From Fodinibius sediminis (GTDB lineage Bacteria > Bacteroidota > Rhodothermia > Balneolales > Balneolaceae): a stretch of 64,000 bases of DNA. The stretch is taken from the NCBI RefSeq assembly GCF_900182555.1, contig NZ_FXTH01000005.1, forward strand, positions 62,001 to 126,000, given 5' to 3'. Each line of letters begins with the position of its first letter. Within the stretch, counting starts at the first letter, position 1. The notes beneath the pieces were generated by a model. The model was not told where the DNA came from. It searched no databases and was given only the letters and a program-made list of their open reading frames with translations. The translations under genes and the position numbers were made by a program. Below are positions 14,622 through 21,082 of the stretch, piece after piece.

Positions 14622-17030
14622 TTACTTAAGTTGTTTGGCCGTTTTCATAATATCACTCAGTACACCTGCAGCCGTTACTTCCTTGCCGGCACCCGGCCCC
14701 TGAATGATCAGCGGAGTCTGGCTATAGAATTTAGAAAAAATCTGAAAAAGATTATCCGTGCCCCGCAATTGGCCAATGGGTGAATCGATGGGAAGGGATT
14801 CTATACCAATGGAGATCTTACCATCAGACAGTTGTCCCGTATATCGAAGCGTTTCATTTTTACTTTTAGCTTTCTGCATTCGCTGATGCCAATAGGCGTC
14901 GTATTTTTTCAAGCGTGTAAGAAAGGCTGATTGGTTGACTTCTGCAAGTTCTTCCGGGATCAACGACTCCACCTGCAACTCGTCGCGTTCAATTTTGAGC
15001 CCCAGGGTGCGAGCCAGGGTCAGAAATTTGCGTGCCACATCCTCCCCGGAAAGGTCATCACGGGGATCAGGCTCGGCATAACCGAGTTCCCGGGCCTTGG
15101 TGATCGCCTCGCTGAAGGGGACATCCTGTTCGAGCTGATTAAAGAGGTACGTCATCGTGCCTGAAACAACGCCAGATATTTTTTTGATTTCGTCGTTGCT
15201 GTCCCGCAAATTTTCGAGCGTGGAAATGACCGGCAGTCCGGCTCCCACGGTTGTTTCGTAGCGAAAGGTGGCATCATTTCGCCGGGCTTCCGACTGAAGC
15301 TTGTCAAAGAAAGACTGCTCAAAGGTATTGGCCAGCTTGCTGGGCGTTACTACATGAATGCCGTTGGCAAAAAGCTGTGGATAAAGACGTGCCACCTCCG
15401 CACTGCCGGTGGCATCAACAAAGATGATATTATGCCTGAACGACTGGGTAAGCTTGTCAATGAGAATTTCCCAGTCTGTCTCTTCAGCCCGGGACCAATC
15501 CAGGTGATCGCCGCTGGCCTGCACCTGCAGACCTTGGTCATCCCAAAGGGTATGCTGGCTGTTACAGGTCCCCAGCAGCCGGAAATGCAGTTCCTTGGTA
15601 TCTGCTCTTTCAAGCTGTTGGAGCAGCGTCTGTCCAACGGCCCCGGTCCCGGCCACAAATAGATCGACCGTCGTTTTCTGGTGCTGCAGATAATCATTGA
15701 GCAGTCGGGCTGCCCGCCGTGCTTCATCTTCTTCGAACAGGAAAGAAATAAAGCGTTCGTCACTGTTTCTGCTGATATGCAGGGGGCGGAGATTTTTAGA
15801 GGCCAGCAGGTTCCATATTCGTTTGGTGAGCTGCTCGCCGTCTTTAAAATAATTGCTGAACTTTTTCACCTTGTAAATATCCTCTTTGATATTCAGCGCA
15901 ATGTTATGTTCTTCGGTCCAGCTGTGAATCGAGTCGCGCATATTCTCAAAGAGCGACTGAAGCACGAGAAAGCGCGCCGGTTCAAAAGAAGAGCTCCGGT
16001 GAAATGAGATCGCTTCGGGCTCCGCTTCGCCATCAAGGTGGCGGGTCAGTGTGTCCAGCAGATCAGATGCATGCTGGTCTTCAACCTGCAGCCGCGTGAA
16101 AGGCCCTGTAATGGTAATGGTTTTGAACGCGCCATTTGACTGGTGTGCGGCATTAATACGTGTGCCGGGATGCGATGGATTGTAGCTGTTTTTTACGAGG
16201 ACTGTCGTATCCTTGTCGTTGATTGGTCGTATGGTCTTGGGATGAATGACCTTTGCTCCATGCGCCGAAAGTTCGCCGATATCCGCGAAGCTGAGTTCCT
16301 CGATAGGCTGTGCCGTGGGGACCCAGCGCGGGTCTGCTGTTAAGACGCCATTTACATCCGTCCAGATTTCAAGATGATCCGCTTCTAGGGCATCGGCAAT
16401 AAGGCCGGCGGTATAATCAGAGCCCGACCGGCCCAGGGTTGTAATACGTTCTTTGGCATCCGATCCGATGAAACCGGTAATTACCGGGGTCGTCTCAGAC
16501 TGCTGCAAGAATTTGCGGGCCAGTTTCCGGGTAGGGCCCTCTTTTACTTTCGCCTGTCCAAAGGTGGAGTCTGTCTTGATGAACCGGTGCGCTTCAAAAG
16601 CTTCCGCCTGCAGTCCTTTGTGGGAGAGGGTTGCGGCAAAAATGAGGGCCGAAGCACGCTCTCCCACCGACAGGATGCGGTCTTTCCACGCCCTGCGGTC
16701 TTCATCTTTCAGTACCTGATCGCTGGCCGTCTGTCTTAGTTCTTCAAAAAGTTCGGTCAGCTCCCGCCGTGACGGGCTGTCCGGGCCCACCAGTTGCTCC
16801 AAAAGAGCTACATGCTTTTGTTCCAGGCGATGGATCTGCTGTTCGGCATCTGAAGGGGCCTCAGCCAGTGCTATAAGGGCATCCGTTACTCCTTTCAGCG
16901 CTGATACAACCACAAAAGGGCGAGCCGCCTGAGAGCGGTCAATGACCACCCGGGCCGCCTGTTCTATAAAGGCTGCATTCTGCAGGGATGTACCGCCAAA
17001 TTTTAGAATATGAATCGGAGATTGCTTCAT
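14622..17030 (-). CDS. thrA: Bifunctional aspartokinase / homoserine dehydrogenase
   Basis: Fusion enzyme for the first and third steps of the aspartate pathway to threonine and methionine. The 802 residues comprise the kinase domain (KFGGTSLQNA at the N terminus; GRSGSDYTAGLIA near 210), an ACT-type regulatory linker (about 310-450) and the homoserine dehydrogenase domain (GTGAVGQTLLQQL near 463; GVVSGTMTYLFNQL; GYAEPDPRDDLSGEDVARK). It begins 2 bases before the metX stop region ends, so metX and thrA are probably cotranscribed and coupled, supplying homoserine to MetX. Confidence 0.96.
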   Translation of the reverse strand: MKQSPIHILKFGGTSLQNAAFIEQAARVVIDRSQAARPFVVVSALKGVTDALIALAEAPSDAEQQIHRLEQKHVALLEQLVGPDSPSRRELTELFEELRQTASDQVLKDEDRRAWKDRILSVGERASALIFAATLSHKGLQAEAFEAHRFIKTDSTFGQAKVKEGPTRKLARKFLQQSETTPVITGFIGSDAKERITTLGRSGSDYTAGLIADALEADHLEIWTDVNGVLTADPRWVPTAQPIEELSFADIGELSAHGAKVIHPKTIRPINDKDTTVLVKNSYNPSHPGTRINAAHQSNGAFKTITITGPFTRLQVEDQHASDLLDTLTRHLDGEAEPEAISFHRSSSFEPARFLVLQSLFENMRDSIHSWTEEHNIALNIKEDIYKVKKFSNYFKDGEQLTKRIWNLLASKNLRPLHISRNSDERFISFLFEEDEARRAARLLNDYLQHQKTTVDLFVAGTGAVGQTLLQQLERADTKELHFRLLGTCNSQHTLWDDQGLQVQASGDHLDWSRAEETDWEILIDKLTQSFRHNIIFVDATGSAEVARLYPQLFANGIHVVTPSKLANTFEQSFFDKLQSEARRNDATFRYETTVGAGLPVISTLENLRDSNDEIKKISGVVSGTMTYLFNQLEQDVPFSEAITKARELGYAEPDPRDDLSGEDVARKFLTLARTLGLKIERDELQVESLIPEELAEVNQSAFLTRLKKYDAYWHQRMQKAKSKNETLRYTGQLSDGKISIGIESLPIDSPIGQLRGTDNLFQIFSKFYSQTPLIIQGPGAGKEVTAAGVLSDIMKTAKQLK

Positions 17031-17032
17031 CG

Positions 17033-18091
17033 TCAGGAAGAAAGCGTTGCTGTTGGTGTTTCCATTAAAAAGGGGGTAATAATATCATTCATCTGTTTAA
17101 ATTCCATAAGGAATGCATCATGCCCGTGAATGGATTGAAGTTCCCGGTACCGGGCGTTGGGCAGGAGCTGTGATAATTCGTGTTGCTCCTGGACAGGATA
17201 GAGCAGGTCCGAATCAATTCCGATGACCAGGGACGGGACGTCGACCTGCCCCAATACCTGTTCCGCTGATTGGCGATTACGTGCAATATCGTGACTGTCC
17301 ATGGCCTGGCTAAGCCGGACATAGGAAACAGCATCAAAGCGGTCCACCAGTTTCTGCCCCTGGTAATCCAGGTAGGATTCTACCTGGAACTGATCCTGGT
17401 CGTCTCCCTGCTGCGACAATCGCCCGAATTTGTTTTCATAATCCGTGTCCGACCGGTAGCTGATCATGGCTATCATACGGGCCAGTGCCAGTCCCCGGCG
17501 GGGCGGGTTTTCCGGGTTGTAGTAGCCTCCCTGCCAGTTGGGATCGTTATAGATCGCCTGGCGCTGGGTATGGCTGATGCCAATAGCCCACGGACGATGG
17601 GCCTTGCCCATGCCAATAAACACGGCTGCCTGCGGGCGATCATCCATGATAGACCATTCGAGGGCCTGCATGCCGCCCATGGAACCGCCAATAACGAGTT
17701 CAATACTTGGAATTTCAAGATCGTCGAGCAGCCGCTGCTGCATGCGAACCATATCCCGGATGGTAATCCTGGGAAAATCAATGCGGTAGGGTTTTCCCGT
17801 CTCGGGATTTATGCTGGCGGGCCCGCTCGTACCGTAGCAGCTGCCCAGTGAATTAGTGCAGATGATAAACTGCCGTTCCGGGTCAAGCGTGTTGCCCGGC
17901 CCAAAAAGACCGTCAAACCACTCGTCGACAGCTGTATTGCCGGTCAGGGCATGGCAGACAAGCACGACATTGTTCCGGGCTTTGTTCAGTTTTCCCCATG
18001 TCTGATAAGCTACTTCCGGTTCCGGAATCGTAAAACCCGATTCCGTAATAAAAGGTTCTGTTAGCTTGTGTTGTTGTACGCCTTTATTCAT
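17033..18091 (-). CDS. metX: Homoserine O-acetyltransferase
   Basis: Alpha/beta-hydrolase-fold enzyme that acetylates homoserine from acetyl-CoA. The 352-residue protein shows the oxyanion motif CHALTGN, the nucleophile elbow VIGGSMGGMQALEW (Ser) and the C-terminal catalytic Asp and His (GIDSDLLYP and IHGHDAFL). It sits between the OsmC gene and thrA in a SAM-riboswitch-led set and makes the substrate for the MetY encoded upstream. Substrate choice between acetyl and succinyl donors is not settled by sequence inspection alone. Confidence 0.94.
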   Translation of the reverse strand: MNKGVQQHKLTEPFITESGFTIPEPEVAYQTWGKLNKARNNVVLVCHALTGNTAVDEWFDGLFGPGNTLDPERQFIICTNSLGSCYGTSGPASINPETGKPYRIDFPRITIRDMVRMQQRLLDDLEIPSIELVIGGSMGGMQALEWSIMDDRPQAAVFIGMGKAHRPWAIGISHTQRQAIYNDPNWQGGYYNPENPPRRGLALARMIAMISYRSDTDYENKFGRLSQQGDDQDQFQVESYLDYQGQKLVDRFDAVSYVRLSQAMDSHDIARNRQSAEQVLGQVDVPSLVIGIDSDLLYPVQEQHELSQLLPNARYRELQSIHGHDAFLMEFKQMNDIITPFLMETPTATLSS

Positions 18092-18155: not shown

Positions 18156-18695
18156 TTAGTTGACGAAACTGACGGTTCCTTCAACCGGTACGGGGTTTTC
18201 AATGATGTCCAAAACCGGACAATTCTTGAAGGAGATCTCTTTGAGACGTTCGAGTTTCTTTTTATCAGTTTCATCTGTTTCAATCTCAGTAACGATATTA
18301 ACATTGTTAAATCCGGAGCGTGCCTCATCCGACAGGTTCAGGAACCCCCGCAGGTCCAAATCGCCTGTTGTTTTTATTTTGACCGATTTTACATCGATGT
18401 CGAGAGCAAGGGCATGCGCCTTTATCACAATTTCCTGGCAGGCGGCCAACGCACCAAGTATGTATTCCACGGGTGTGGCTCCCCGATTGGTACCGCCCAG
18501 GCTTTCCGGCTCGTCGGAGATAAATTGAAATTCACGTATGTTTACCTCAGACTGCAAGCCTTCTTCGAGCTTTGATTCAGCCTTGAAGACGACATCCGCC
18601 TTTTCCGGGTTACTGCTTATTTCCTCTGCCAGGGTCTGTACCGCCTGCACAATCTTTTGATCCAAATGTTCTTTTTCTTGAACTGTGTTACTCAT
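18156..18695 (-). CDS. OsmC/Ohr family protein
   Basis: A 179-residue OsmC-fold protein. The two redox cysteines of the family are visible (LAACQEI near residue 85, and FKNCPVLD near 158), consistent with a thiol-dependent peroxidase or sulfur-handling role. The position inside a methionine/cysteine assimilation operon suggests protection of, or sulfur transfer to, MetY products, but this is inference. A perfect 9-bp hairpin separates it from metY. Confidence 0.85.
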   Translation of the reverse strand: MSNTVQEKEHLDQKIVQAVQTLAEEISSNPEKADVVFKAESKLEEGLQSEVNIREFQFISDEPESLGGTNRGATPVEYILGALAACQEIVIKAHALALDIDVKSVKIKTTGDLDLRGFLNLSDEARSGFNNVNIVTEIETDETDKKKLERLKEISFKNCPVLDIIENPVPVEGTVSFVN

Positions 18696-20637: not shown

Positions 20638-20699
20638 ATAAAAAAGCCTCTTCCCCAATCCTGCTCCTGTTTCTGGAGAAGATTTTGGAAGAGGCTTTT
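20638..20699 (-). terminator. Terminator of the SAM riboswitch expression platform
   Basis: Minus-strand hairpin with arms AAAAGCCTCTTCC and GGGGAAGAGGCTTTTTT enclosing a second small stem. It lies about 30 bases after the aptamer and about 40 bases before the CoA-binding gene. SAM binding is expected to favour it and switch the operon off. Confidence 0.85.
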
Positions 20700-20884: not shown

Positions 20885-20922
20885 AAAAAAAAGCCCTCCG
20901 GGATTTTCCGAAGGGCTTTTAA
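20885..20922 (-). terminator. Terminator after the leader peptide
   Basis: Minus-strand hairpin AAAAGCCCTTCGG/CCGGAGGGCTTTTTT with a nine-base T run, 25 bases after the leader-peptide stop and about 30 bases before the SAM aptamer. It can act as an attenuator for the whole operon or as the end of a separate short transcript. Confidence 0.85.
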
Positions 20923-20946
20923 TTTGGTTCATTCAGATGAAACGAA

Positions 20947-21027
20947 TTAAGCCTCCGGATGTGTACAGGGCATACAAAGCCGTATAATGCACATCCAACA
21001 GATCATATTGCAAGCAACTCGTTTCAT
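20947..21027 (-). CDS. Short Cys- and Met-rich leader peptide
   Basis: A 26-codon reading frame with an AAAGGA ribosome site 5 bases before its ATG. It begins MKRVACNMICWMC and ends CMPCTHPEA. Five codons are Cys and four are Met (including the start). A promoter lies 27 bases upstream and a rho-independent terminator begins 25 bases after the stop; the SAM-I riboswitch of the methionine operon follows. This is the layout of a translation-sensing attenuator for cysteine and methionine, but no such leader is known to me for this operon. It could also be an independent small peptide. The call rests on composition, ribosome site and context. Confidence 0.55.
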   Translation of the reverse strand: MKRVACNMICWMCIIRLCMPCTHPEA

Positions 21028-21053
21028 GGGTATCCTTTTATAAATTCAAGGCT

Positions 21054-21082
21054 AACATAATTGTTTTTTGCAAACGATACAA
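21054..21082 (-). promoter_or_regulatory. Promoter of the leader peptide and methionine operon
   Basis: On the minus strand TTGTAT (21077-21082) and TATGTT (21054-21059) are 17 bp apart, giving a start site about 20 bases before the leader ATG. The -10 region also resembles the TAnnTTTG element of Bacteroidota. Confidence 0.5.

Follow-up and report, generated by a model that had tools for sequence, protein, structure and literature searches.

The classical amino-acid attenuators are the trp, his, leu and ilv leader peptides. According to the accessible portion of a paper from 2010, attenuators of this type were then known only from Proteobacteria and Actinobacteria, with Firmicutes being added in that same work (PMC2965389). 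Streptomyces lividans possesses a leaderless peptide, MetL, which ends in ARCMCRRMCAF and is located before metNIQ (PMC8079986). The locus of Fodinibius sediminis described here resembles that of MetL in carrying Cys and Met codons in a leader ahead of methionine genes; MetL, however, precedes a transporter operon, and the available part of the source reports no typical intrinsic terminator and makes no mention of a SAM-I riboswitch (PMC8079986).

Organization of the metY leader region

The window, i.e., the entire 64,000-nucleotide stretch of F. sediminis DNA that was analysed, carries on its minus strand a leader region situated between a peptidase M1 gene and the methionine operon. The latter comprises genes for a CoA-binding protein (PF13380; 20103..20600), MetY (O-acetylhomoserine sulfhydrylase, TIGR01326; 18775..20091), an OsmC-like protein (18156..18695), MetX (homoserine O-acetyltransferase; 17033..18091) and aspartate kinase/homoserine dehydrogenase (14622..17030). 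The small CoA-binding-domain protein often heads the metY operon in Balneolales and has no clear role in methionine synthesis. In the direction of transcription, the leader region consists of a promoter-like stretch (21082-21052), a leader frame, a first terminator (terminator 1), a SAM-I aptamer and a second terminator (terminator 2). This arrangement of frame, terminator and SAM-I was confirmed and is most unlikely to have arisen by chance; the fold of the leader lies 4.68 sd below that of its dinucleotide shuffles, none of 200 being as good.

The leader frame (20947..21027, minus strand, ATG to TAA) encodes the 26-residue peptide MKRVACNMICWMCIIRLCMPCTHPEA with five Cys and, counting the start, four Met residues, as had been claimed in the original prediction, and Cys and Met are its putative control codons. 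The terminator that was said to stand close behind its stop codon was also found: terminator 1 (20889..20920) is formed by a stem of 13 pairs with a loop of six and a T run reaching onward to 20884, with 26 bases between stop and stem. The terminator scan alone proves little, because 0.6 such sites were also found per shuffled region.

The aptamer (20856-20727) matches the RF00162 covariance model with 73.6 bits against a gathering cut-off of 44.4 (E 2.3e-15). Terminator 2 (AAAAGCCTCTTCC...GGAAGAGGCTTTTTT, 20640..20699), located between the aptamer and the first gene, was recognized in the sequence, the fold and the genus alignment, and was missed by the simple terminator scan, whose loop limit is eight. 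It is presumed to be the expression platform of the riboswitch, SAM binding itself being inferred. A T-box or other Rfam element as first sensor was rejected, since the window contains no Rfam match at gathering score apart from SAM and one tRNA; in 18 and 20 related loci, SAM alone reached that score.

Conservation of the leader frame in Balneolales

A collection of 174 SAM-I loci was analysed, consisting of all 63 matches of one search plus a hand-made spread of others, with 94 loci from the order Balneolales (five families, f1 to f5), 45 from other families of Rhodothermia and 35 from families elsewhere in the phylum. Each locus was scored by the best Cys plus Met count in 12 codons of any short frame within 200 nt upstream of the aptamer. 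A count of at least five was reached in 63/94 Balneolales, 0/45 other Rhodothermia and 1/35 other-family loci, and of at least four in 67/94, 2/45 and 2/35, respectively, the shuffle means being 1.8, 1.2 and 1.4. The predicted pairing of leader and SAM-I is not confined to this genome.

Separate calling of leaders, within 230 nt and at a threshold of four, yielded 67 Balneolales leaders, all of which stand before metY or before a CoA-binding gene that precedes metY. Within the order, 67 of the 75 metY-side SAM-I loci have a called leader, as opposed to none of the remaining 19 (Fisher p 6e-14, without correction for relatedness). Eleven of these 19, when translated, resemble MetH by eye, and the one that was tested is MetH-like. 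Among the eight metY-side loci below threshold, inspection revealed short Cys frames in two (G046, G049) and a CCC variant in a third (G045), while no Cys frame was seen on inspection in G015, G025, G033, G055 and G131; the MetY of G025 is only 30% identical. The notion that a leader is retained where SAM-I has been lost is unsupported, as seven Balneolales genomes lacking a match to SAM-I gave none to MetY either (E 1e-60; no positive control).

The called leaders bear the signs of a translated frame. Their start codons are ATG (64), GTG (2) and TTG (1), all gaps within the frame in an alignment of 12 genomes of the genus are multiples of three, and pN/pS is 0.50 in frame versus 0.75 and 1.13 in the two shifted frames. 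Over 64 distinct leader peptides, Cys accounts for 18.1% and Met for 13.0% of residues, compared to 0.8% and 2.3% in the long frames of the window; Cys is encoded by TGT 180 times and by TGC 90 times, occurs in all 67 leaders (minimum two) and is commoner than Met. Outside the Cys/Met run the peptide drifts, with little conserved across the order, and Cys and Met swap places without any fixed Cys spacing (61 to 64 distinct peptides). What persists is placement, as the run keeps to approximately 4 to 12 codons ahead of the stop. Across 63 loci, Cys/Met is absent from the last codon; its fraction peaks at 0.84 eight codons before the stop, where Met alone reaches 0.59 and is strongly enriched at this central stall position, and is 0.10 from sixteen codons on. 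The peak coincides with the position at which a stalled ribosome would decide the outcome.

A TTCTTT motif of unexplained function is present at 20877-20872 of the window, and in relatives it is mostly found 14 to 21 nt upstream of the aptamer. It occurs at most 40 nt ahead of the aptamer in 62/67 leader loci, 7/8 metY-side loci without a called leader, 5/45 other-Rhodothermia loci, 21/35 other-family loci and 0/19 copies not before metY.

Predicted alternative pairings around terminator 1

Folding and covariation indicate that the mutually exclusive pairings expected of an attenuator may indeed form, in that region 3 (AATTAAAAGCCCTTCGG, 20908..20924) can pair either with region 2 (CCGGAGGCTTAATT, 20945..20958), the putative 5' strand of an antiterminator that overlaps the stop codon, or with region 4, thereby forming terminator 1 (regions 3:4). 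A feature on which the original prediction had not remarked is a 1:2 stem between the start of the frame (region 1, ATGAAACGA, 21019..21027) and TCGTTTCAT (20945-20937), just past the stop. This stem beats shuffles in all 12 genus members, but is not general outside the genus, where it reaches p<=1/30 in only 17 of 55 loci.

A terminator motif follows the leader stop in 63 of the 67 leader loci, and the four f4 loci G037, G040, G043 and G057 possess a leader without a canonical terminator 1. In these four, the start-codon region can pair with sequence behind the stop, the paired letters varying by species. Where terminator 1 is present, a stop-side segment, whose first base lies anywhere from 14 nt ahead of the frame end to 4 nt past it, pairs with the terminator 5' arm at on average 8.5 of 11 positions, for example as CCGRAGG/CCTTCGG (the genus Fodinibius), GCGGAGGG/CCCTCCG, GCAGAGGG/CCCTCTG or GCATAGGG/CCCTGTG. 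When the terminator arms were permuted among loci and the segment was chosen anew, the score of the own arms was 18.67 versus 16.92 for the best of 1000 permutations; this control is fairer than covariation shuffles, because the antiterminator segment had been picked as the best-matching one.

Among 48 distinct core pairs, standard pairs occupy 77.5% of cells versus 70.8% in shuffles, cells altered on both sides number 58 versus 19.6, and the covariation score is 0.288 versus 0.184 (0/500 shuffles as high in each case). In the same set, pairs with a change on both sides (80/500 as high) and further pair types (50/500) were not above shuffles. Sliding the pairing register reduces all covariation measures. 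A count with a narrower anchor, which left out 13 of 63 loci (12 of them from the genus), gave a modest excess of 3.46 versus 2.86 of 5 positions, and pairing in the narrower register is weak (3 to 5 of 8) in the f4 loci G051 and G053 and the f5 loci G038 and G041. By duplex energy, a cruder control, the own arm reached -13.9 kcal/mol, foreign arms -10.9 and shuffled segments -6.8, and the own arm ranked in the best quarter against foreign arms in only 40/59 loci. None of these pairing controls (permutation, shuffles, duplex energy) takes relatedness into account. Within its own genome, the strict antiterminator-terminator triple occurs once, at this locus; a looser AGGG pattern found no match in that genome, this locus included, and is hence uninformative.

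In the window leader, the nascent antiterminator is computed to fold at -14.8 kcal/mol when the ribosomal A site is placed at codon 18 or 19, whereas with the A site at the stop no fold is predicted before region 4 is made. Over 63 loci, and assuming a 14-nt footprint, the free nascent RNA reaches -15.1 kcal/mol with the ribosome eight codons before the stop versus -1.5 at the stop. As judged from predicted pairings and covariation only, region 2 would therefore be exposed by a ribosome on the Cys/Met run and covered by one at the stop. With region 4 completed, the terminator is more stable than the alternative fold in every computed state, so that the outcome must be kinetic. The same holds for known attenuators.

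The original prediction would have been refuted by relatives lacking the frame or carrying frameshifts in it, or by transcripts always starting behind the first terminator. The alignment of relatives proposed there revealed the frame in 67/75 metY-side loci, gaps in threes, and a stop-side antiterminator and terminator that are conserved and co-vary, and the proposal of a Cys/Met attenuator stacked on a SAM riboswitch survives as far as sequence can test it.

Putative promoter and order of transcription

The Bacteroidota promoter consensus is TTG / TAnnTTTG. A putative promoter of this type (21052..21082) is supported by the genus alignment and by matrix score; it comprises TTG at 21082-21080, a 20-nt spacer and the -7 element TATGTTAG at 21059-21052, all conserved in the 12-genome alignment. 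The promoter originally placed at 21054-21082 fits this conserved TTG / TATGTTAG arrangement, although a sigma-70-type scan instead picks 21110-21082, with 1.0 such site expected by chance.

A promoter matrix was built from 45 leader loci with exclusion of near-identical training sequences; training and test sets overlap, which makes it partly circular. In this genome it scores 7.9 on the leader side versus 2.7 in the gap between terminator and aptamer. The leader side outscores that gap in 56/63 loci and is no better than downstream in the other seven, and the best promoter-like site of the whole 420 nt lies at the leader in 50/63. For 15 of the 19 SAM-I copies that are not before metY, the best promoter-like site ends at most 15 nt from the aptamer and scores lower.

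In 45/54 loci outside the genus, the start codon follows the TA of the -7 element at a distance of 11 to 15 nt, which, given the usual Bacteroidota promoter layout, predicts that the RNA starts at or beside the ATG. The AAAGGA claimed as a good ribosome-binding site is present at 21038-21033 (minus strand) and may act as a Shine-Dalgarno site here, but it is not conserved even within the genus alignment, and, with leaders outside the genus predicted to start at or near the RNA 5' end, it is no general feature.

Proposed mechanism and rival explanations

It is proposed, with a probability of roughly 0.85, that the region combines two devices in series, first a ribosome-mediated attenuator of transcription that senses sulfur amino acids and then a SAM-I riboswitch. 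In the absence of transcript or expression data, the frame, the codon placement, the predicted alternative pairings with their covariation and the module order are what can be regarded as demonstrated from sequence. It is inferred that the leader is translated, that ribosomes stall and transcription terminates, that each amino acid elicits a response and that the modules act by AND logic. Transcription would start just ahead of the leader frame. When Cys- or Met-charged tRNA is short, the ribosome would stall on the Cys/Met run and leave region 2 free as region 3 emerges, and the resulting 2:3 antiterminator would allow polymerase to pass terminator 1; when both charged tRNAs are plentiful, a ribosome at the stop would cover region 2, and the 3:4 hairpin would terminate transcription. 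If the leader were left untranslated, the 1:2 stem, a pairing seen in the genus, would form and terminator 1 with it. Polymerase that has passed terminator 1 would meet the SAM-I switch and terminate at high SAM. As the two terminators stand in series, full expression would require both low charged tRNA and low SAM.

The original prediction had offered a separate short transcript as its alternative, i.e., a functional metal- or thiol-binding peptide whose message ends at terminator 1, with the SAM switch acting independently. The high Cys content, the promoter-like site and terminator of its own and the in-frame pN/pS of 0.50 would all suit such a peptide, yet little of it is conserved apart from the Cys/Met run, the Cys spacing is not fixed, and Cys and Met replace each other among 61 to 64 distinct peptides. 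Moreover, the last codon is never Cys or Met and the placement of the run is tied to the stop, whose adjoining segment co-varies with the terminator, a property that a plain transcript end does not need. An independent switch is also poorly matched by the promoter scores, as only 7/63 leader loci score equally between terminator and aptamer, while 15/19 of the copies not before metY have their best, lower-scoring site within 15 nt of the aptamer. This explanation is consequently poorly supported and is left with a slight chance. The least credence is given to control of terminator 1 by an arrest peptide or an unknown metabolite-binding RNA in place of codon-by-codon tRNA sensing; the strong fold of the leader is compatible with it, but outside the Cys/Met run the coding part shows no conservation across the order, be it as peptide or as RNA, and SAM and one tRNA are the only Rfam families to reach the gathering score in the window.

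A closer variant of the attenuator holds that the leader acts through Cys alone, Met codons being tolerated since SAM-I already reports the methionine side. The occurrence of at least two Cys in all 67 called leaders, where Cys is commoner than Met, is in keeping with this variant, as is the below-threshold locus G049, whose frame is Cys-only and whose stop side can, by eye, pair with a downstream arm. The strong enrichment of Met (0.59) eight codons before the stop and the Met-rich character of six leaders without SAM-I outside the order (see below) speak against it, and it is considered unlikely without being dismissed. The preferred reading remains an attenuator that responds to both sulfur amino acids.

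Occurrence beyond Balneolales

At first the leader seemed to be confined to Balneolales, on the upstream side of SAM-I, but a MetY-based search and 60 further metY-upstream regions disproved this. Of 393 MetY loci the best 80 were taken, and a frame with at least five Cys plus Met in 12 codons was sought within 1600 nt upstream, without a shuffle control. Among these 80, such a frame was found in 29 of the 32 best loci, mostly Balneolaceae or Balneolales, and in 23 of the other 48. Twelve of the 60 further regions were flagged; none of these came from the eight other-Rhodothermia regions or from families f21, f27, f34, f40 and f41.

Twenty-three positive loci were examined, 14 of them labelled Melioribacteraceae, Melioribacter, Ignavibacteriales, Bacteroidetes/Bacteroidota or bacterium, and nine from families f26, f44 and f50. 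A terminator follows the frame in all 23, and the stop region pairs with the terminator 5' arm at a mean of -11.6 kcal/mol versus -4.8 for shuffled segments. SAM-I lies behind the leader in 17/23 (cmscan); the other six (L304, L308, L310, L311, L317 and L253) have a Met-rich Cys/Met leader and a terminator, with no SAM-I at gathering score. These data suggest that Melioribacteraceae and some related MAGs also carry attenuators of this kind ahead of metY, either combined with SAM-I or without it. L308 has an additional terminator ~155 nt past the first, and no Rfam family matches the stretch that separates them.

Other layouts were also observed. In five loci (L251, L257, L259, L262 and L263; Pontibacter, Botryobacter, Splendidivirga), SAM-I comes first and a Cys-rich frame follows just after it, within ~430 nt before metY, ending for example in CCSRMCMCCCCC, or in ...MCMCCCCC in Pontibacter and relatives. 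No terminator was seen in the three of these loci that were inspected; the sensor order is reversed here, and control is possibly translational. In Thermophagus, Marinilabilia, Breznakibacter, a Marinilabiliaceae genome and Carboxylicivirga (L245, L246, L258, L265 and L268), Met-run frames (MMMCMMM, MMMGRMSM) lie within ~330 nt before metY and are followed by a long hairpin that is alike in several of them; no Rfam match, and hence no SAM-I, was found there at gathering score.

These layouts can be accommodated in a broader hypothesis, for and against which the odds appear even, namely that metY is under a modular 'sulfur codon' control common to Balneolota, Ignavibacteria-type bacteria and part of the Bacteroidia. 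A leader reading the charged tRNA of both sulfur amino acids would be swapped, reordered or stacked with SAM-I, the series AND gate would belong to Balneolota and Melioribacteraceae, and ribosome loading on a leaderless message would start attenuation outside Fodinibius. If the system works as read here, it would constitute a deep evolutionary case of an attenuator wired in series with a riboswitch, in which charged tRNA for Cys and Met is read first, followed by SAM, the product side of the same pathway. Modules that occur together, apart and possibly reordered before the same gene would show how RNA logic gates assemble and what each sensor adds, and the predicted leaderless start makes the role of Shine-Dalgarno-free initiation in attenuation testable.

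Comparison with known systems

The proposed attenuator shares with the classical ones a frame of control codons, an antiterminator strand that overlaps the stop, an intrinsic terminator and, in the genus, a predicted 1:2 stem. It differs from them in its mixed Cys and Met control codons, in the SAM riboswitch in series and in the predicted leaderless start outside Fodinibius. The Cys leader peptides of Actinobacteria likewise consist of short frames that precede sulfur genes and carry their Cys runs close to the stop, as far as the accessible text of the sources goes (PMC1262725, PMC4633059); in contrast to the present case, that text gives no conserved terminator as found (PMC1262725), and the genes concerned are cys or cysteine-related, with no riboswitch mentioned in the parts available (PMC1262725, PMC4633059). 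An intrinsic terminator and proposed ribosome-mediated attenuation are also features of uORFC-8-2 before cysS in Rhodobacterales, which has two tandem Cys codons but concerns a tRNA synthetase gene and Cys only, again without mention of a riboswitch in the text available (PMC8632094).

Two further systems, each known from part of its source, combine sensors in a related manner. The tandem attenuators of Salmonella mgtCBR likewise unite two sensors within a single leader RNA, including a codon-rich leader peptide, but respond to ATP and proline, act additively and involve no SAM riboswitch (PMC3641672). Mycobacterial B12 riboswitches with uORFs (metE, ppe2) similarly join a riboswitch to a short translated frame, in one case before a methionine gene, yet sense B12 and exert translational control, and the available portion of the source describes no run of sulfur codons (PMC11260477).

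No leader peptide in series with a SAM riboswitch was found in the open-access literature searched, subscription journals and preprints being mostly uncovered, and the accessible text of open-access papers naming both elements does not describe the series pairing. Each part and the mechanism class are known; what appears new within the literature searched is the series of Cys/Met leader and SAM-I, together with the phylum and the modular spread of that series.
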